From Desulfuromonadales bacterium C00003068 (GTDB lineage Bacteria; Desulfobacterota; Desulfuromonadia; Desulfuromonadales; Desulfuromonadaceae), in NCBI GenBank assembly GCA_001751155.1, contig MAXR01000086.1, positions 1,670 through 12,401 of the forward strand: DNA of 10,732 nucleotides, given 5' to 3'. Below are positions 1,790 through 8,214 of this stretch, one piece after another (within the stretch, counting starts at the first letter, position 1; every line of letters starts with the position of its first letter). The notes under the pieces are model-generated. The model made no database searches. It had not been told where the DNA came from and was given only the letters and a program-made list of their open reading frames with translations. A program made the position numbers and the translations under genes.

Positions 1790-3094
1790 CTAATGAAGCC
1801 AATTAGGTAACCACAACACCAACTGAGGCCATACGATCAGAAGAAACAGGCACAGGAAAAAGGAGGGTAAAAAAAGACTTACCCCGCGAAACACCTGACC
1901 AAGAGGAACATCTTTAGCCATGGAAGAAACGATAAAGGTGTTAACGCCAACAGGTGGAGTCACTGCGCCCATGGTGGTGACAACAGTAATCAACACCGCG
2001 AACCATAGCGGATCATAACCCAGCTGCTGGGCAACAGGAAAAAAGATCGGTATGGTAATAATCAGCAGCGCTAAGGCATCCATAATCGCCCCGCCAATCG
2101 CATAGATAATACAGATCAGGGAGATAATGATGATTGGTGACAGATCCGCCTGTGACACCTGTTCTGCCACCTGATAGGGTAAGCGGGTAATGGTCAGAAA
2201 ACGACCAAAAACAACGGCGCCAAAAATAATCATCATAATCATGCAGGAGATGCGCAAGCTATCATCCACAGCGCAAACAAACTTACGCCAACTCATATGG
2301 CCACCCAACACACTAATAAGCAGGGCCAAAGCACTTCCCGCAGCACCGGCTTCACTAGGGGTAAAGAAGCCGAGCAATAAACCCAACATCACCAGAGCAA
2401 ACAACAGCAGCATTTCGATAGCACCGGGCAATGCCGCCATTTTTTCGCGCCATGATGTTTTGCCGCCTGCGGGACCAAGTTCGGGCCGGACGAAACAGCT
2501 CACCAACACAGTTATCAAAAATAACCCCGTCAACAAAGCCCCAGGAACAAGCCCCGCCCAAAAAAGGCTAGCAATTGACTGGCCCGTTTGCAAACCAATT
2601 AAGATCAGCACCACCGACGGCGGAATCACTACACCGAGAGTCGCGCCAACGGCAACAGAGCCCGTGCTAAGCAGTGGGCTATAACCATATTTCTTCATCT
2701 GCGGTAAGGCGACGCTACTCATGGTTGCTGCGGTGGCGGTATTGGAACCACAAATGGCGGCAAAACCTGCACAGGCAAGAATGGTGGCAATGGCTAACCC
2801 ACCACGCACCCCACCCATCCAAACATGAGCCGCCTTGTAAAGGCGTTCGTTAACACCTGAGTGAAAGCAGATCTGGCCCATTAAAACAAACAATGGGATA
2901 ACAGTTAAACCATAGGACGAAAAAACCTTCCACGATTCTGCACCGATCATCCCCATTGCAGCGGGTAGATTGACCACATTCCAAAAGCCGATAAAACCGA
3001 CAATGGCCATGGCAAAGCCGACAGGAACACGCAGCGCAAAAATCACCACTAACAAAACGATAATACCGACAATCCCAAGGGCAAATAAACTCAT
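1790..3094 (-). CDS. dctM: TRAP transporter large permease (DctM)
   Basis: Large membrane subunit of a tripartite ATP-independent periplasmic transporter, which carries the substrate across the inner membrane using a sodium or proton gradient. At 434 residues it has the usual length, and it consists almost entirely of hydrophobic helices (roughly twelve). Family landmarks are visible: GSNTATAATMSSVALPQM around 116-133, GFFTPSEAGA at 242-251, and GAVTPPVGVNTF at 376-387. The start ATG (3094) overlaps the stop of the small permease gene in an ATGA arrangement, so translation is probably coupled. The symbol denotes the family; the substrate cannot be read from this subunit and need not be a C4-dicarboxylate. 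Confidence 0.95.
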   Translation of the reverse strand: MSLFALGIVGIIVLLVVIFALRVPVGFAMAIVGFIGFWNVVNLPAAMGMIGAESWKVFSSYGLTVIPLFVLMGQICFHSGVNERLYKAAHVWMGGVRGGLAIATILACAGFAAICGSNTATAATMSSVALPQMKKYGYSPLLSTGSVAVGATLGVVIPPSVVLILIGLQTGQSIASLFWAGLVPGALLTGLFLITVLVSCFVRPELGPAGGKTSWREKMAALPGAIEMLLLFALVMLGLLLGFFTPSEAGAAGSALALLISVLGGHMSWRKFVCAVDDSLRISCMIMMIIFGAVVFGRFLTITRLPYQVAEQVSQADLSPIIIISLICIIYAIGGAIMDALALLIITIPIFFPVAQQLGYDPLWFAVLITVVTTMGAVTPPVGVNTFIVSSMAKDVPLGQVFRGVSLFLPSFFLCLFLLIVWPQLVLWLPNWLH

Positions 3095-3594
3095 GAGCGA
3101 CCCCGATTGTTGGATGAAAAAAGGACGATAAAAAAATCAGTCACCAGGGCTAATCCTAACGCGACAAACCCTAATGCTACCGCAAACACAACGGGGTAAT
3201 AGACCACTTGCAGGGTTTCTGAAAGTTCGCCGAGGCGCCAGATACCCAATGCTCTCTGACCACAATGCCAACTGACCAACAGAAAAAAACTGCCACTGAG
3301 GACAAACGAAAACAACACCAGCGTTTTTTCCAACCACGCGGGCAAATGGCCCTTTAATAAAGTCACAGTAATATGCCCCTTGCCGCGCTGCGTTGCAGCA
3401 AGGGCAAAGGCCGCAGCCAGTGCCCCTGAGAAGCCCATCAATTCAAAGGTCCCCTTCACTGGAACCCATACTGCGCGCAGTACCATATTTGAGCAGGCCA
3501 GTAGCACCATCAACACCATGAAAAATCCCGCGAGGCACAACAGCCCTAAACTGATTTTTTTATTCACTGTTTCTAAATACGGTAGCAACTTCAA
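3091..3594 (-). CDS. dctQ: TRAP transporter small permease (DctQ)
   Basis: Small membrane subunit that partners DctM. The 167-residue protein shows four hydrophobic segments at about 16-36, 52-69, 90-109 and 132-160, the standard DctQ topology. Between the second and third segments it has GKGHITVTLLKGHLP, the usual H-I-x-V-x-LL region of the family. The start is a TTG at 3594, only three bases after the TAA of the binding-protein gene; AAAGGGA inside the end of that gene provides the ribosome site at about 8 bases. Its TGA overlaps the ATG of the large permease. The tight packing of the three genes argues for a single co-translated transporter. Confidence 0.92.
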   Translation of the reverse strand: MKLLPYLETVNKKISLGLLCLAGFFMVLMVLLACSNMVLRAVWVPVKGTFELMGFSGALAAAFALAATQRGKGHITVTLLKGHLPAWLEKTLVLFSFVLSGSFFLLVSWHCGQRALGIWRLGELSETLQVVYYPVVFAVALGFVALGLALVTDFFIVLFSSNNRGRS

Positions 3595-3597
3595 TCG

Positions 3598-4647
3598 TTA
3601 CATCCCTTTTGTCAGCGTATGCTCTGCTTGAGTTTTCAACCTTAAAACATCAGCCATTACAGCATCAGCGTCAATACCTCGACTCGATGCGGCACTGTGC
3701 CAGTTCGCCAACAATGGCTCCATTTTTTGTTCTGCTAATACTTGATCTTGCTCCGACAAATTGATCTGCTCAATCTGGTATGTTTCGCTAGCCCACTTGA
3801 GTGAGTCGGCAACATGGGCATCCATATAGCGACCTGTCCATAACGCCTGTTCACGAGAGAGGTCCGTCAACACCTCTTGCTGCTGGGCTGAAAGGCTATT
3901 CCATTTTTCAAGATTCATCACCACGGCAAAGGGATACACTTGGAAGTTCGTCAACGTTTCATAACGACAGTACTCAGCAAAATTGAGATCCTTGAGTACT
4001 TCCATCGAAGAGAGCAACCCCTTAACTAACCCTTTTTGAAGGGCTTCGGGTGTTTGCGACATCGGCATTGAAACAGGTGTTGCCCCCAATTTGTCCAAGA
4101 TCTGTGATGCAATTCCCGAGGCGCGAAGTTCTAGTCCAGCCAAATCCTCTAAACTGCGCACAGGAACCTGACTCATAATACACGTGGGCGCGCTGGTAAA
4201 CATGGCCAGTACTTTTACTTGAGCGAACTCTTTAGGTTGATATTTTTGGTACAGATCCCACAGCACGCTACTCGCCACAGTGGATGATTTAAAACCTAGC
4301 GGCAATTCAGTTACGGTTGTCATTGGGAAAGCGCCGGGCTGATATGACATGCACAGACAACCGATATCGGCTTGCCCTGCAATGACACCAGCAAGCATAT
4401 CTTTGGCACCTAGCAGAGTGCCACCAGGAAAGGTATTGATCGCCAAACTTCCGCCGCTGTCCTGCTCAACCTGTTCTTTCCAATGCTCCATCTGCACGCA
4501 GGGAAATGTCGTTGCAGGGGGAAAGTTAGCATAAGAGAGCGTCACAGTTTCCTGCGTCGCAGCGGCATCTGTCGTGGTCTCATCACGTTGACAGCCACTG
4601 ACTAAAAGAGCCAAAAGTACACACCACACAACCAACCAGCGAACCAT
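3598..4647 (-). CDS. dctP: TRAP transporter substrate-binding lipoprotein (DctP)
   Basis: Periplasmic solute receptor of the TRAP system, here predicted to be a lipoprotein: the N-terminus is a hydrophobic helix ending in LLVSGC, with C19 as the acylated cysteine, followed by a Thr/Ala-rich linker. The mature part follows the DctP fold pattern: TLSYANFPPATTF near 36-48, FPGGTLLGAKDMLAGVIAGQADIG at about 73-96, and SLEDLAGLELRASG at about 165-178. Arg175 of the last block is in the position that binds the substrate carboxylate in many members. Unusual for this family are extra cysteines C50, C97, C99, C156 and C227. AGGAGG (4652-4657) lies four bases before the ATG. The upstream fusion gene ends 47 bases away without a terminator-like hairpin, which suggests one operon. 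Substrate unknown. Confidence 0.92.
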   Translation of the reverse strand: MVRWLVVWCVLLALLVSGCQRDETTTDAAATQETVTLSYANFPPATTFPCVQMEHWKEQVEQDSGGSLAINTFPGGTLLGAKDMLAGVIAGQADIGCLCMSYQPGAFPMTTVTELPLGFKSSTVASSVLWDLYQKYQPKEFAQVKVLAMFTSAPTCIMSQVPVRSLEDLAGLELRASGIASQILDKLGATPVSMPMSQTPEALQKGLVKGLLSSMEVLKDLNFAEYCRYETLTNFQVYPFAVVMNLEKWNSLSAQQQEVLTDLSREQALWTGRYMDAHVADSLKWASETYQIEQINLSEQDQVLAEQKMEPLLANWHSAASSRGIDADAVMADVLRLKTQAEHTLTKGM

Positions 4648-4694: not shown

Positions 4695-7600
4695 CTAAAA
4701 CAGTGGGCACCCTTGACCTAAACAATCTGAATTCAGTTGATGCTGATCGCACGGGAGCCATTCCTGTGCCACCAAAGGTAGGGGTAGATAGTGTTGCGAT
4801 AATTTTGCCGCCTGTTGTAACGACACCACACAATCACGGTTACAACACCGCGCGGCATTAAAGTCGGCAAGTTCCTTAAGTACGCGTTGCACCACAGTCT
4901 GTACTGTTTGGCGCTGATCAGCCTTCACGGGATTAGCCTCAAGAATCAGACTAAAGGCAATGCCAACGCCAACCGCAGCGCCACAAATACCATTATAGGC
5001 ACAACTACCACCAATCACTTGCGAACCGCGCCGAATGCCAGTAGCGAGTACCGTATCACCAAGCTTGCCGCCTCGATTACGATACGTCGCTAAGATAACC
5101 GCCGGAACAAGGGCATGGAATTGCGGCCCATGTAACGGAATAGCTGGATGGCGACGCACCTGATGAAACAGCCGTAACATATCCGTTTCTGTCGAACTAA
5201 AGCAAATACTCTCAATGGCACGAACAGAATCGGTACTATGACACTGATCGCACACATAATGACCCTGCTCACAATTTTCACTCGCCTCGACGTGACGACC
5301 ACAATAATGACATTCTTGACGGCTAAATAACGTTTCATAAATCAGCGGCGCGCCACACACCATACATCCCTGAGATTTTTTTTCGCTAGCAGCCATCTTA
5401 CCAGCATGGGCACCATCAACTTCTTCGAACTGCTGCGGCGGCAACGCGCAATTACAGCTGGAGCTAAACTCAACATTGGTGATATGCCCCGCCTCATCAA
5501 GGTGATACAGCTGTGAGCCGGCAGCCGAAGCTTCAACGGCAGAGACGTGAAACACCTGTCCCGGAACGACAACCTGACCGCTGGCTAACTGCAGCGTTGG
5601 AAATGGCCCTGGATACATCACCCGCACAGTGGCTTCAGGTTCAGGTTTAGCGGCACGAAATGTTAGCGAATAAAAAGGGTGGCCTTGTACTAAACGGTAA
5701 GAAACCCGCTTTAAACAAAAGAACGCATGAAAGCCACTCTCGTCAAGCAAGCCATTTAAATCCTTTTGGCTCAGCGCCCCAGCAATACACTCACCACGCA
5801 ATACTTCATCGTTTCGAATCGCCGCATCGGGTTCGGTTTCGCACACCACATCGGCAACGACTAACCGGCCACCAGGCTTGAGAACACGGAAGATTTCAGC
5901 AAACAAGCGCCGCTTGTCGCTGGATAAGTTCAACACGCAATTGGATAAGATCAGATCAACACTGTTATCGGCAACGGGAAGTTGTTCAAGAAAGCCCTTG
6001 CGGAAATCGAGGTTATCATAGCCTAAGTTTTCACTTACCCCCTTGGTTCCACGACGAGCCAAGTCAAGCATGGGGTCGAGCATATCGACACCAATTACCT
6101 GACCACTGCTGCCCGTTAAACGGGCGGCAATAAAGCACTCCACACCACTACCGCAACCGAGGTCTAATACCGTCTCCCCGGGACAAATCTCGGCATCGAG
6201 AACGGGGCTACCACAGCCATAACCACGTAAGCGAAATTCAGCCGGGATATGACTGATAATCTCAGCTTCATAACAGACTGGATTGAGGATATCTTCCTTG
6301 GTGTCACCAACGGCTTCGGCGTAGAAATTTTTAACGACGCTGCGGCTATCATCTTGTGTCAACGCCAACAGACAATTTGAATGGAGCAACGCCACCTTAC
6401 CGTGCGCGCCACAACTCTCCAAACAATCACCCATTTTCAGGCGCAAAGCTGGCCCCTGGTGCTCGTCAAAACGATGGGCCACTGACTGGATCAATTCAAC
6501 TGCCAACATTTCATACAGGGGCAAGTAGGGGTCATCGCTGACAAAGGTTTGCGCATAATGGTAGCTGTGATCACTATCGCCGCCACCTAAGATAAAGTGC
6601 CATGGCGACGACTGAGAGACACAACTGCTGCGCCGAATTTGCTCTAAGACATCACTGTTGCGCCAACTATGAGCCAAACTATTTTCAATAGGAGTTGCCA
6701 GCTCGGCAACAGCCACCAATGCCGCAGAAGGATACAGTGCCCCATCGGCACCAATCGCCACCGAGTTCCAGCCGCAGCCGCTGCCATCATGGATGGTTCC
6801 AGGCGGTGCAAACACCTGTGTTTTTAAGGCATCGAGATTATCAATACTGATGCCGCGCTGCTGGGCACGTTGCCACGCCTCGACAAATGGCGCAAAAATC
6901 TGTGTGGGTTCAACATACAGGTCGGCTTTACCGCGACCGCAAATAAAATACCACATAAAATGAACATTACTGGCGCCACAGTCTGCGGCAATATCAACCA
7001 CTGCGGCCATATCATTGAGATTATCCCGCTCCACACACATTGACAGCGTGAAGGCCCGAGACTGTTCGCGCAACCACTTCATCTGGGTTTGCAGCTGAGC
7101 AAAACTACCAGCACCGCGAATATGATCATGGCGCGCGGCCAAACCATCGACACTCAGCTGAAGGTGAAAACGACTCCAATCCCACTCAACAGATTGAAGA
7201 ACGGGCTGTAAGCTCATCCCATTCGTCAACACCGCGACATGAGCCCCTGCGTAGGATTGAATGTGTTGGACAATATCGACAAAACGGGGATGAACAAACG
7301 GTTCGCCACCGGTAAGGGCAAACACCCGGCAACCAAGTTCTGCCGCTTCGTCGACGCGCTGAACAATTGTTTCATAACTCAATTCATCCGCTTCTTGCGG
7401 CCCAGAGGTAAACAAACAATGGCGACAACTCAAATCGCAGCGGTTGGTAATATGTAACCACAGCTCGCTCAAACGATCCGTTTCAAGGTTGGCATATCGG
7501 CCTAAATAGGTGGTTGGTGGCCCCGCCGGTAAACGCTGAAGAAAACGCTGAACAATCGGATCATCGGTGATCTGTTCACCGGCAATCAGCTGCTGTAAAA

Positions 7601-7709
7601 TCTGATCGCCTGCCCTGTTAGGAACAAACCAACTCGGCACATCGCCGCGTAAATAGATGCCACCTTGCGGATGGTCGAGCCGTTGCCATGCCGTTACATC
7701 AAAACTCAT
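4695..7709 (-). CDS. Radical SAM + ArsM-like methyltransferase + DUF5714-like fusion protein
   Basis: A 1004-residue cytoplasmic multidomain enzyme. Residues 1-75 resemble a PqqD-type segment (IYLRGDVPSWFVPN, then GDQILQQLI). Residues 82-350 form a radical SAM barrel with the cluster motif CDLSCRHC (C91, C95, C98) and the SAM-side TGGEP at 133-137. Further cysteines (C312, C363, C429, C433, C446) may hold an auxiliary SPASM-like cluster. Residues 475-690 are a class I methyltransferase: VLDLGCGSG at 514-522, VIGVDM at 538-543, LSNCVLNLSSDK at 588-599, LKPGGRLVVAD at 610-620. It has the arsenite-methyltransferase signatures YGCG (C499), SNCVLNL (C591) and GECIAGAL (C641). Residues 780-823 carry CxxC pairs typical of zinc ribbons. 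The end (GGSCAYNGICGAAVG, 900-914, then CC-x3-C) resembles DUF5714/C-GCAxxG-C-C proteins. It starts at ATG 7709 after GGTGA and is first gene of the TRAP operon. The exact reaction is unknown; domain calls are firm except the PqqD-like and SPASM parts. Confidence 0.88.
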   Translation of the reverse strand: MSFDVTAWQRLDHPQGGIYLRGDVPSWFVPNRAGDQILQQLIAGEQITDDPIVQRFLQRLPAGPPTTYLGRYANLETDRLSELWLHITNRCDLSCRHCLFTSGPQEADELSYETIVQRVDEAAELGCRVFALTGGEPFVHPRFVDIVQHIQSYAGAHVAVLTNGMSLQPVLQSVEWDWSRFHLQLSVDGLAARHDHIRGAGSFAQLQTQMKWLREQSRAFTLSMCVERDNLNDMAAVVDIAADCGASNVHFMWYFICGRGKADLYVEPTQIFAPFVEAWQRAQQRGISIDNLDALKTQVFAPPGTIHDGSGCGWNSVAIGADGALYPSAALVAVAELATPIENSLAHSWRNSDVLEQIRRSSCVSQSSPWHFILGGGDSDHSYHYAQTFVSDDPYLPLYEMLAVELIQSVAHRFDEHQGPALRLKMGDCLESCGAHGKVALLHSNCLLALTQDDSRSVVKNFYAEAVGDTKEDILNPVCYEAEIISHIPAEFRLRGYGCGSPVLDAEICPGETVLDLGCGSGVECFIAARLTGSSGQVIGVDMLDPMLDLARRGTKGVSENLGYDNLDFRKGFLEQLPVADNSVDLILSNCVLNLSSDKRRLFAEIFRVLKPGGRLVVADVVCETEPDAAIRNDEVLRGECIAGALSQKDLNGLLDESGFHAFFCLKRVSYRLVQGHPFYSLTFRAAKPEPEATVRVMYPGPFPTLQLASGQVVVPGQVFHVSAVEASAAGSQLYHLDEAGHITNVEFSSSCNCALPPQQFEEVDGAHAGKMAASEKKSQGCMVCGAPLIYETLFSRQECHYCGRHVEASENCEQGHYVCDQCHSTDSVRAIESICFSSTETDMLRLFHQVRRHPAIPLHGPQFHALVPAVILATYRNRGGKLGDTVLATGIRRGSQVIGGSCAYNGICGAAVGVGIAFSLILEANPVKADQRQTVQTVVQRVLKELADFNAARCCNRDCVVSLQQAAKLSQHYLPLPLVAQEWLPCDQHQLNSDCLGQGCPLF

Positions 7710-7812: not shown

Positions 7813-7839
7813 GCACAAACCAACCTATCTAGTTTGTGC
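7813..7839 (-). terminator. Perfect 8-bp hairpin at the end of the orphan gene
   Basis: GCACAAAC (7813-7820) and GTTTGTGC (7832-7839) are exact inverted repeats around an 11-base loop. The stem overlaps the last codons and the TAG stop of the minus-strand orphan gene. There is no T-run after it on either strand, so it may be a weak terminator, an mRNA 3' stabilising stem, or a protein-binding palindrome upstream of the fusion operon. Confidence 0.4.
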
Positions 7840-8193
7840 AGCAACCTCTTCGTATACCGCTAACAACCCGTCGGGTCGAAAACAACAGCTTCGTACCGTA
7901 TCGCTACCGTCATTTTTTTTCGTTGCCCAATCGATCACTTCAACTTTTTTGCGCCAATGTCGGGAAAATGTTCCACAGTGGCATTTTTCGTTTAACTGGA
8001 GCAACTCTGTCCACATTTGTTCCATATCTAACAAGTGAAAATCATCAACGGTTACGGTGGTGATTAGCCGTTTCAAGAAATAGTCCACACGTTCGATCTG
8101 TGGCTCGCCACCCACTTCAGAGCACCACTGAATAAAGGGCAACTCTTCAGTCCGTTTTTTCTCAATTTGCTGTCGTAAGTCAGTCTGATTCAC
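7825..8193 (-). CDS. Hypothetical protein, about 122 aa
   Basis: I do not recognise a family. The product is a soluble, charged protein with no signal peptide or membrane helix. It has an N-terminal helical, lysine/glutamate-rich part (LRQQIEKKRTEELPF), a middle predicted to be alpha/beta (VDYFLKRLITTVTVDDFHLLD), and a cysteine/histidine cluster, KCHCGTFSRHW, with a later CC pair (RSCCF). The cluster could bind a metal, but too few ligands are visible to be sure. The start is uncertain: the GTG at 8193 has GGGGGA four bases upstream and is my choice; an in-frame TTG at 8205 gives a 126-residue product but lacks a ribosome site, and the ATG at 8209 is in another frame. It is divergent from the FKBP gene and lies 115 bases upstream of the fusion gene on the same strand, separated by a hairpin. 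Confidence 0.65.
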   Translation of the reverse strand: MNQTDLRQQIEKKRTEELPFIQWCSEVGGEPQIERVDYFLKRLITTVTVDDFHLLDMEQMWTELLQLNEKCHCGTFSRHWRKKVEVIDWATKKNDGSDTVRSCCFRPDGLLAVYEEVAAQTR

Positions 8194-8214
8194 ACGATCC
8201 CCCAATCATTCGAT

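Follow-up and report, generated by a model that had tools for sequence, protein, structure and literature searches.

Organisation of the fusion gene

The window analysed here, that is, the whole 10,732 bp stretch from contig MAXR01000086.1 of Desulfuromonadales bacterium C00003068, carries on its minus strand a gene in which a radical S-adenosylmethionine (SAM) domain, an ArsM-like arsenite methyltransferase and a DUF5714 domain are joined in one protein. The gene (4695-7709, Table 1) runs from ATG to stop through 1004 codons without interruption, and plus-strand translation of the same interval is riddled with stops. An original prediction had described three modules in one 1004-residue chain, which is confirmed by the open frame and the Pfam matches: Radical_SAM at residues 87-239 (64.5 bits), Methyltransf_31 at 510-657 (108 bits) and DUF5714 (PF18978) at 832-1004 (188.2 bits, above the gathering cut-off of 26.2). 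The cluster motif CDLSCRHC (C91/C95/C98) and the SAM-binding motif VLDLGCGSG, both called intact, are present, and the estimate of about 39 cysteines proved exact, with 24 of the 39 invariant in a 38-row alignment. Profile and structure comparison recovered the three modules and, in addition, two parts that had been missed: an N-terminal domain and a zinc-ribbon-like stretch at 782-823.

A frame joined merely by sequencing error had also been envisaged, but the same single open frame, covering at least 996 of the 1004 residues, is found in 33 of the order's 136 genomes. The fusion is therefore not an assembly artefact.

The ArsM-like module

In NCBIfam, residues 451-760 are best matched by PRK11873, a model of arsenite methyltransferases (217.9 bits), and the solved structures nearest in sequence belong to arsenic methyltransferases (E about 5e-38). 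A match to the arsinothricin ArsM model NF040538 spans 579-752 and, as it extends to residue 752, indicates that ArsM's C-terminal part is included too. C499, C591 and C641 align with C72, C174 and C224 of solved ArsM, and the structure comparison also turned up the C72A and C224A mutants of ArsM. All three aligned residues are Cys in 55/55 rows of an alignment made up of the window protein, the fusions, two split forms and the relative L121 (genomes and loci are given by our G and L numbers). The predicted fold of the module matches solved ArsM, and the likeness to ArsM first proposed is thus upheld by both the arsenic-site cysteines and the fold. From the conserved sites and the modelled fold, the module would be expected to methylate As(III).

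ArsM-like frames with one in-frame TGA were also seen in G011, G013, G046, G075 and G102, and are candidate selenocysteine-containing arsenite methyltransferases.

Distribution and the rarity of ArsS in fusion genomes

When pieces at contig ends and interrupted frames are counted (nine genomes), the fusion occurs in 42/136 genomes of the order; G057, in which only residues 894-1003 matched, was left out. At most the best six candidates per genome were scored in the order, and in the phylum at most the best two for the fusion and five for ArsS, so that misses are possible. Two copies with interrupted frames, L063 (G030) and L064 (G031), reflect decay or assembly error. A second clade, about 43% identical, occurs in four of the 33 genomes (G027, G035, G075 and G089), in G089 as the only copy. 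Phylum-wide, the fusion was found in 34 of 395 genomes, of which 28 have it in one frame, two split between neighbouring genes (G290, G351) and four cut by a contig end; six loci of named metagenome-assembled genomes under other accessions also carry it. The search for split genes suggested in the original prediction was thus productive: L113 and L114 have a radical SAM-ArsM gene next to a DUF5714 gene, the two overlapping by four bases in L113 (G290), and in L122 (G506) separate ArsM and ArsS genes neighbour those for a MerA-like FAD enzyme and a VTT protein.

PMC12159101 describes a radical SAM enzyme, called ArsS in the work it cites, that adenosylates arsenic in oxo-arsenosugar synthesis, and the accessible text of PMC8552651 has SsArsS and SsArsM working together at the start of the arsenosugar pathway. 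Called by TIGR04167 at E 1e-60, ArsS is present in 54/136 genomes of the order, but in only 2/42 fusion genomes against 52/94 others (Fisher 2.6e-9). Shuffling the ArsS labels within taxonomic families gave a mean of 7.1 shared genomes, with two or fewer at P 0.0012-0.0015, and at genus level the exclusion has p 0.004. Across the phylum, ArsS was found in 120/395 genomes and in 1/34 with the fusion, where 10.3 were expected (Fisher 4.1e-5, not corrected for relatedness); for phylum genomes outside the order p is 9.7e-5. The window's own genome has no match to TIGR04167 (cut-off 300 bits) at the same E-value. As controls, TIGR04282 and TIGR04283 show no exclusion in the order, and the crude exclusion of a VTT-FAD gene (Fisher 1.1e-4) disappears within families (P 0.25). 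The eight genomes with the best-scoring stand-alone ArsM (273-312 bits) all have ArsS.

The radical SAM half

C91, C95 and C98 are Cys in 55/55 rows. Against ArsS, the radical SAM half is 24% identical over 153 aa, with no homology beyond the common core, and DUF3641 (PF12345), which the ArsS of L122 has, gave no match at E 0.1 in the window protein. The suggested parallel with arsenosugar synthesis therefore does not hold as kinship between the two radical SAM enzymes. By predicted fold (VIA), the model matches the sactipeptide maturase 5wgg, which we take to be CteB, over model residues 6-414. Pfam PqqD has no match at E 0.1 in the window protein and scores 27.6 bits in L121. The SPASM auxiliary-cluster cysteines are missing from the fusion family, in which only C433 and C446 between residues 262 and 452 are Cys in at least 15 of 55 rows.

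The very distant relative L121:7456-9942 (minus) is an 828-aa PqqD/radical SAM/SPASM-like/ArsM protein without DUF5714, in which Cys aligns with Asp378 and Asp380 of the fusion, though this alignment is uncertain. It may show an ancestral form.

The likeness to peptide maturases raises the question of whether the protein matures a ribosomally synthesised and post-translationally modified peptide, the RRE-like domain binding a leader, cysteines being modified and the ArsM-like module methylating a thiol or peptide-bound metalloid. We regard this as distinctly improbable: the SPASM cysteines are gone, the arsenic cysteines of ArsM would be left unexplained, and no small precursor gene recurs across families among frames of at least 70 aa, although a 126-aa gene recurs in the window's genus.

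As the radical SAM half is unlike ArsS, it need not carry out an identical radical reaction. An arsenic enzyme with another radical step might transfer a 3-amino-3-carboxypropyl group, as ArsL does to As(III) in arsinothricin synthesis, or join a lipid or amino acid to the arsenic. The ArsM evidence applies equally to such an enzyme, ArsL and ArsM are a known pair (both points from the accessible text of PMC8552651), and the NF040538 match noted above fits it as well. The canonical CxxxCxxC motif does not by itself tell the cleavage mode; the exclusion of ArsS and the shared neighbours point to the ArsS niche, and we consider a step of this other kind unlikely.

The zinc ribbon and DUF5714 end

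The zinc-ribbon-like stretch (782-823) is Cys-rich and invariant in the 38-row alignment, residues 770-1004 are modelled by AlphaFold2 (AF2) with a predicted local distance difference test score (pLDDT) of 94.2, and this end of the protein holds 13 invariant cysteines. By position and frame, 44 of the 51 DUF5714 matches in the order lie within the fusion or a piece of it. The parallel first drawn with C-GCAxxG-C-C proteins is weak, C_GCAxxG_C_C scoring 16.4 bits, below its cut-off of 27. The MbdU model NF045648 scores 113.8 bits against a cut-off of 600, and the window gene has no in-frame TGA to match the two selenocysteines of MbdU. The openly licensed literature searched holds no mention of DUF5714, and any role we give it is a guess from the invariant cysteines.

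Stand-alone DUF5714 genes adjoin a radical SAM protein at L125:7311-9417 and L126:5677-7795; the radical SAM protein of L125 carries an HMPTM-type zinc ribbon, and the L126 neighbour falls in the same protein cluster.

Gene neighbourhoods

Sixty-two loci were examined and 59 counted (L058, L117 and L139 gave no fusion frame), among them the split forms L113 and L114, the DUF5714-less L121 and contig-end pieces. Within 8 kb, 15/59 have a TIGR04282 'arsenosugar' glycosyltransferase and 11/59 both TIGR04282 and TIGR04283; without L162, L163 and L172, which were added once such neighbours had been noticed, the counts are 12/56 and 9/56. The match in L059 is weak (62 bits). In L137 the two glycosyltransferases score 224.7 and 257.5 bits in NCBIfam, against cut-offs of 134 and 182, respectively. 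Nine of the 23 labelled families contribute loci with TIGR04282. On the 55-protein tree the linkage requires 8 changes, of which well-supported branches force at least 7, against a shuffled mean of 12.5; it is thus clustered, although several branches of the tree show it. TIGR04282 is absent from all 21 control loci, which had been taken up for other hits; among them, L128 contains the 3' piece of a fusion gene, and a TIGR04283-like gene is present in L129. DUF3047-like genes lie near 8/59 loci, VTT proteins near 14/59 and FAD enzymes near 11/59. Twelve ArsS loci were compared, chosen rather than random (L158 and L159 were picked because their contig also bears a glycosyltransferase match). 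No ArsS frame was obtained in L166; of the other 11, five have VTT and FAD genes close by, two TIGR04282 and one DUF3047. The arsenosugar lead of the original prediction is thus backed by the glycosyltransferase neighbours and the ArsS exclusion, if not by descent.

At L162:4591-6813 (plus), a VTT membrane domain is fused to a MerA-like FAD oxidoreductase. Part of this VTT-FAD fusion was matched in 106/136 genomes of the order at E 1e-80, and it stands beside the fusion or ArsS in several.

Around the window gene the setting is different. TRAP (tripartite ATP-independent periplasmic) transporter genes begin 47 bp downstream and look co-transcribed with the fusion; they stand beside it only in the window and in a 94%-identical relative (L008/L043). 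The upstream 126-aa protein recurs at 10 loci, in 9 distinct places, of the window's family and has no Pfam or NCBIfam match at E 0.1. In the second clade, a sulfonate-type ATP-binding cassette binding protein is found in L060, L061 and L062, and a CobW-like GTPase with an aquaporin-type (MIP) channel in L059, L060 and L061; L060 also carries MoaA-like and MBL proteins. With such settings in the window and the second clade, an arsenosugar is not necessarily the end product in every lineage.

The CobW-like GTPase and the MoaA-like and MBL proteins of L060, together with the resemblance of DUF5714 to MbdU, by name a metal-binding double selenoprotein, would suit an enzyme that acts on antimony, selenium, tellurium or mercury, or that matures a metal cofactor. 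Such a role would account neither for the arsenosugar-named glycosyltransferases beside the fusion nor for the exclusion of ArsS, and we think it very improbable.

Table 1. Features of the window, with the parts of the fusion protein given by residue.
Feature	Position	Strand	Remarks
Whole fusion gene	4695..7709	minus	1004 aa, RRE-like / radical SAM / ArsM-like / zinc ribbon / DUF5714
RRE/PqqD-like N-terminal domain, residues 1-66	7512..7709	minus	AF2 fold; VIA alignment with 5wgg
Radical SAM core, residues 79-262	6924..7475	minus	Pfam PF04055 at 87-239
CxxxCxxC cluster motif CDLSCRHC, residues 91-98	7416..7439	minus	Cys invariant, 55/55 rows
SPASM-like region without SPASM Cys, residues 263-450	6360..6923	minus	C433, C446 conserved; GGGDxDHS motif
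ArsM-like methyltransferase, residues 451-760	5430..6359	minus	C499/C591/C641; C752, C754 near end
Zinc-ribbon-like stretch, residues 770-831	5217..5402	minus	C782, C785, C800, C803, C813, C820, C823
DUF5714, residues 832-1004	4698..5216	minus	Pfam; C903, C955, C956, C987, C996, C1001 invariant
TRAP transporter DctM	1790-3094	minus	
TRAP transporter DctQ	3091-3594	minus	
TRAP transporter DctP	3598-4647	minus	
Conserved 126-aa protein, function not assigned	7825..8205	minus	Same strand, 115 bp upstream of fusion

Proposed function

On balance, we favour the view that the fusion is a single-chain enzyme making carbon-arsenic bonds in place of separate ArsM and ArsS. Its product is predicted only, as the best reading of sequence, fold, distribution and neighbours; a radical step on arsenic in particular is suggested by the genome distribution and the neighbouring genes. 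The fusion itself would imply sequential chemistry on one substrate, and the two different uses of SAM first proposed are supported as likely activities of a three-enzyme chain.

In the proposed route, the conserved cysteines would hold As(III) and the ArsM module, using SAM, would convert it to mono- or dimethylarsenite. The radical SAM module would then reductively cleave another SAM and place a SAM-derived group on the methylated arsenic, most simply 5'-deoxyadenosyl, as in ArsS. Least certain is the zinc ribbon/DUF5714 end, which might hold the trivalent arsenical between steps or feed in electrons. Where a lineage has arsenosugar-type glycosyltransferase genes next to the fusion, the product would be passed on to a sugar; none was seen next to it in the window's genus, whose end product may be a simpler organoarsenical.

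Several observations weigh against this reading. The window protein misses the PRK11873 cut-off of 263, as do the four stand-alone ArsM proteins scanned (231-255 bits), and C479, the counterpart of one more cysteine of ArsM in the alignment, is Cys in 30/55 rows but not in the other 25, being His in the second clade (L059-L062). The radical SAM half resembles a peptide maturase and not ArsS. Three genomes (G072 and G107 in the order, G480 in the phylum-wide set) have both fusion and ArsS. A separate ArsM (E 1e-40) was found in only 13/54 ArsS genomes of the order, so that an ArsM and ArsS pair is not clear-cut there, and the next-best stand-alone ArsM genomes without the fusion (G301, G294 and G169; 208-209 bits) have no ArsS. 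As to neighbours, 44/59 loci, the window included, lack TIGR04282 in the stretch examined, and several DUF3047 matches are weak (57-69 bits). The label 'arsenosugar biosynthesis' of TIGR04282 and TIGR04283 is a database name, TIGR04282 being a 'hypoth_equivalog', and since the two occur in 116/136 and 121/136 genomes of the order, only their adjacency counts. Neither glycosyltransferase was found in the window's flanks (3.0 and 4.7 kb), nor in L044 and L046, which have wider flanks and come from one-contig genomes of this genus; the window's genome, which is 89% complete, has a TIGR04283 match just under the cut-off (180.2 against 182) and no Acr3.

As for its origin, a peptide-maturase-type radical SAM enzyme may have been recruited apart from ArsS, have lost its auxiliary-cluster site and been fused to ArsM and a thiol-rich arsenic carrier, yielding a single polypeptide that takes As(III) through both methylation and adenosylation and replaces ArsM and ArsS across many anaerobic families; this is a tentative scenario that we hold to be possible but short of probable.

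No fused arsenite methyltransferase-radical SAM architecture is described in those portions of the openly licensed literature that were searched, an absence that is not proof, and in the portion of a selenoproteome review available to us MbdU and ArsM selenoprotein fusions are listed, whereas this architecture is missing. If the proposal of a single-chain carbon-arsenic enzyme is true, the fusion would represent a third, unrelated radical SAM lineage forming such bonds beside ArsS and ArsL, as far as the portions of the papers cited above go. It would also explain how organisms without ArsS could make complex organoarsenicals, serve as a gene marker for this capacity in anaerobes, provide a single protein for dissecting two SAM chemistries directed at a toxic element, and give DUF5714 a testable role.

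Comparison with known systems

The fusion resembles several known proteins in part. With ArsM/AS3MT, the As(III) SAM methyltransferase (solved as 4fr0, 4kw7, 5evj and 8xt7), it shares the predicted fold, the SAM site and cysteines matching C72, C174 and C224, but it is a 1004-aa chain that falls below the PRK11873 cut-off and in which C479 is not constant. The ArsM selenoprotein fusions NF041536, NF041537 and NF047649, compared by their names only, likewise combine ArsM with a second thiol- or selenol-rich domain, there DUF2284, AhpD or UXPK-star, without radical SAM. MbdU (NF045648) and stand-alone DUF5714 proteins have the same zinc ribbon and DUF5714 layout and the same cysteine pattern, whereas in the fusion this module is part of a larger chain and lacks an in-frame TGA or selenocysteine.

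Among radical SAM enzymes, 5wgg, SkfB (6efn) and PqqE (6c8v) are alike by predicted fold in the core and the SPASM-like arrangement, and 5wgg also matches the fusion's N-terminal part; the fusion differs from these maturases in having no SPASM cluster cysteines and no precursor peptide recognised among frames of at least 70 aa. Compared with ArsS (TIGR04167), it has no DUF3641, belongs to another radical SAM lineage, contains RRE-like and SPASM-like parts and is joined to ArsM. The two nevertheless have in common a radical SAM core with CxxxCxxC, share genomic partners in some loci and are complementary in their distribution among genomes.
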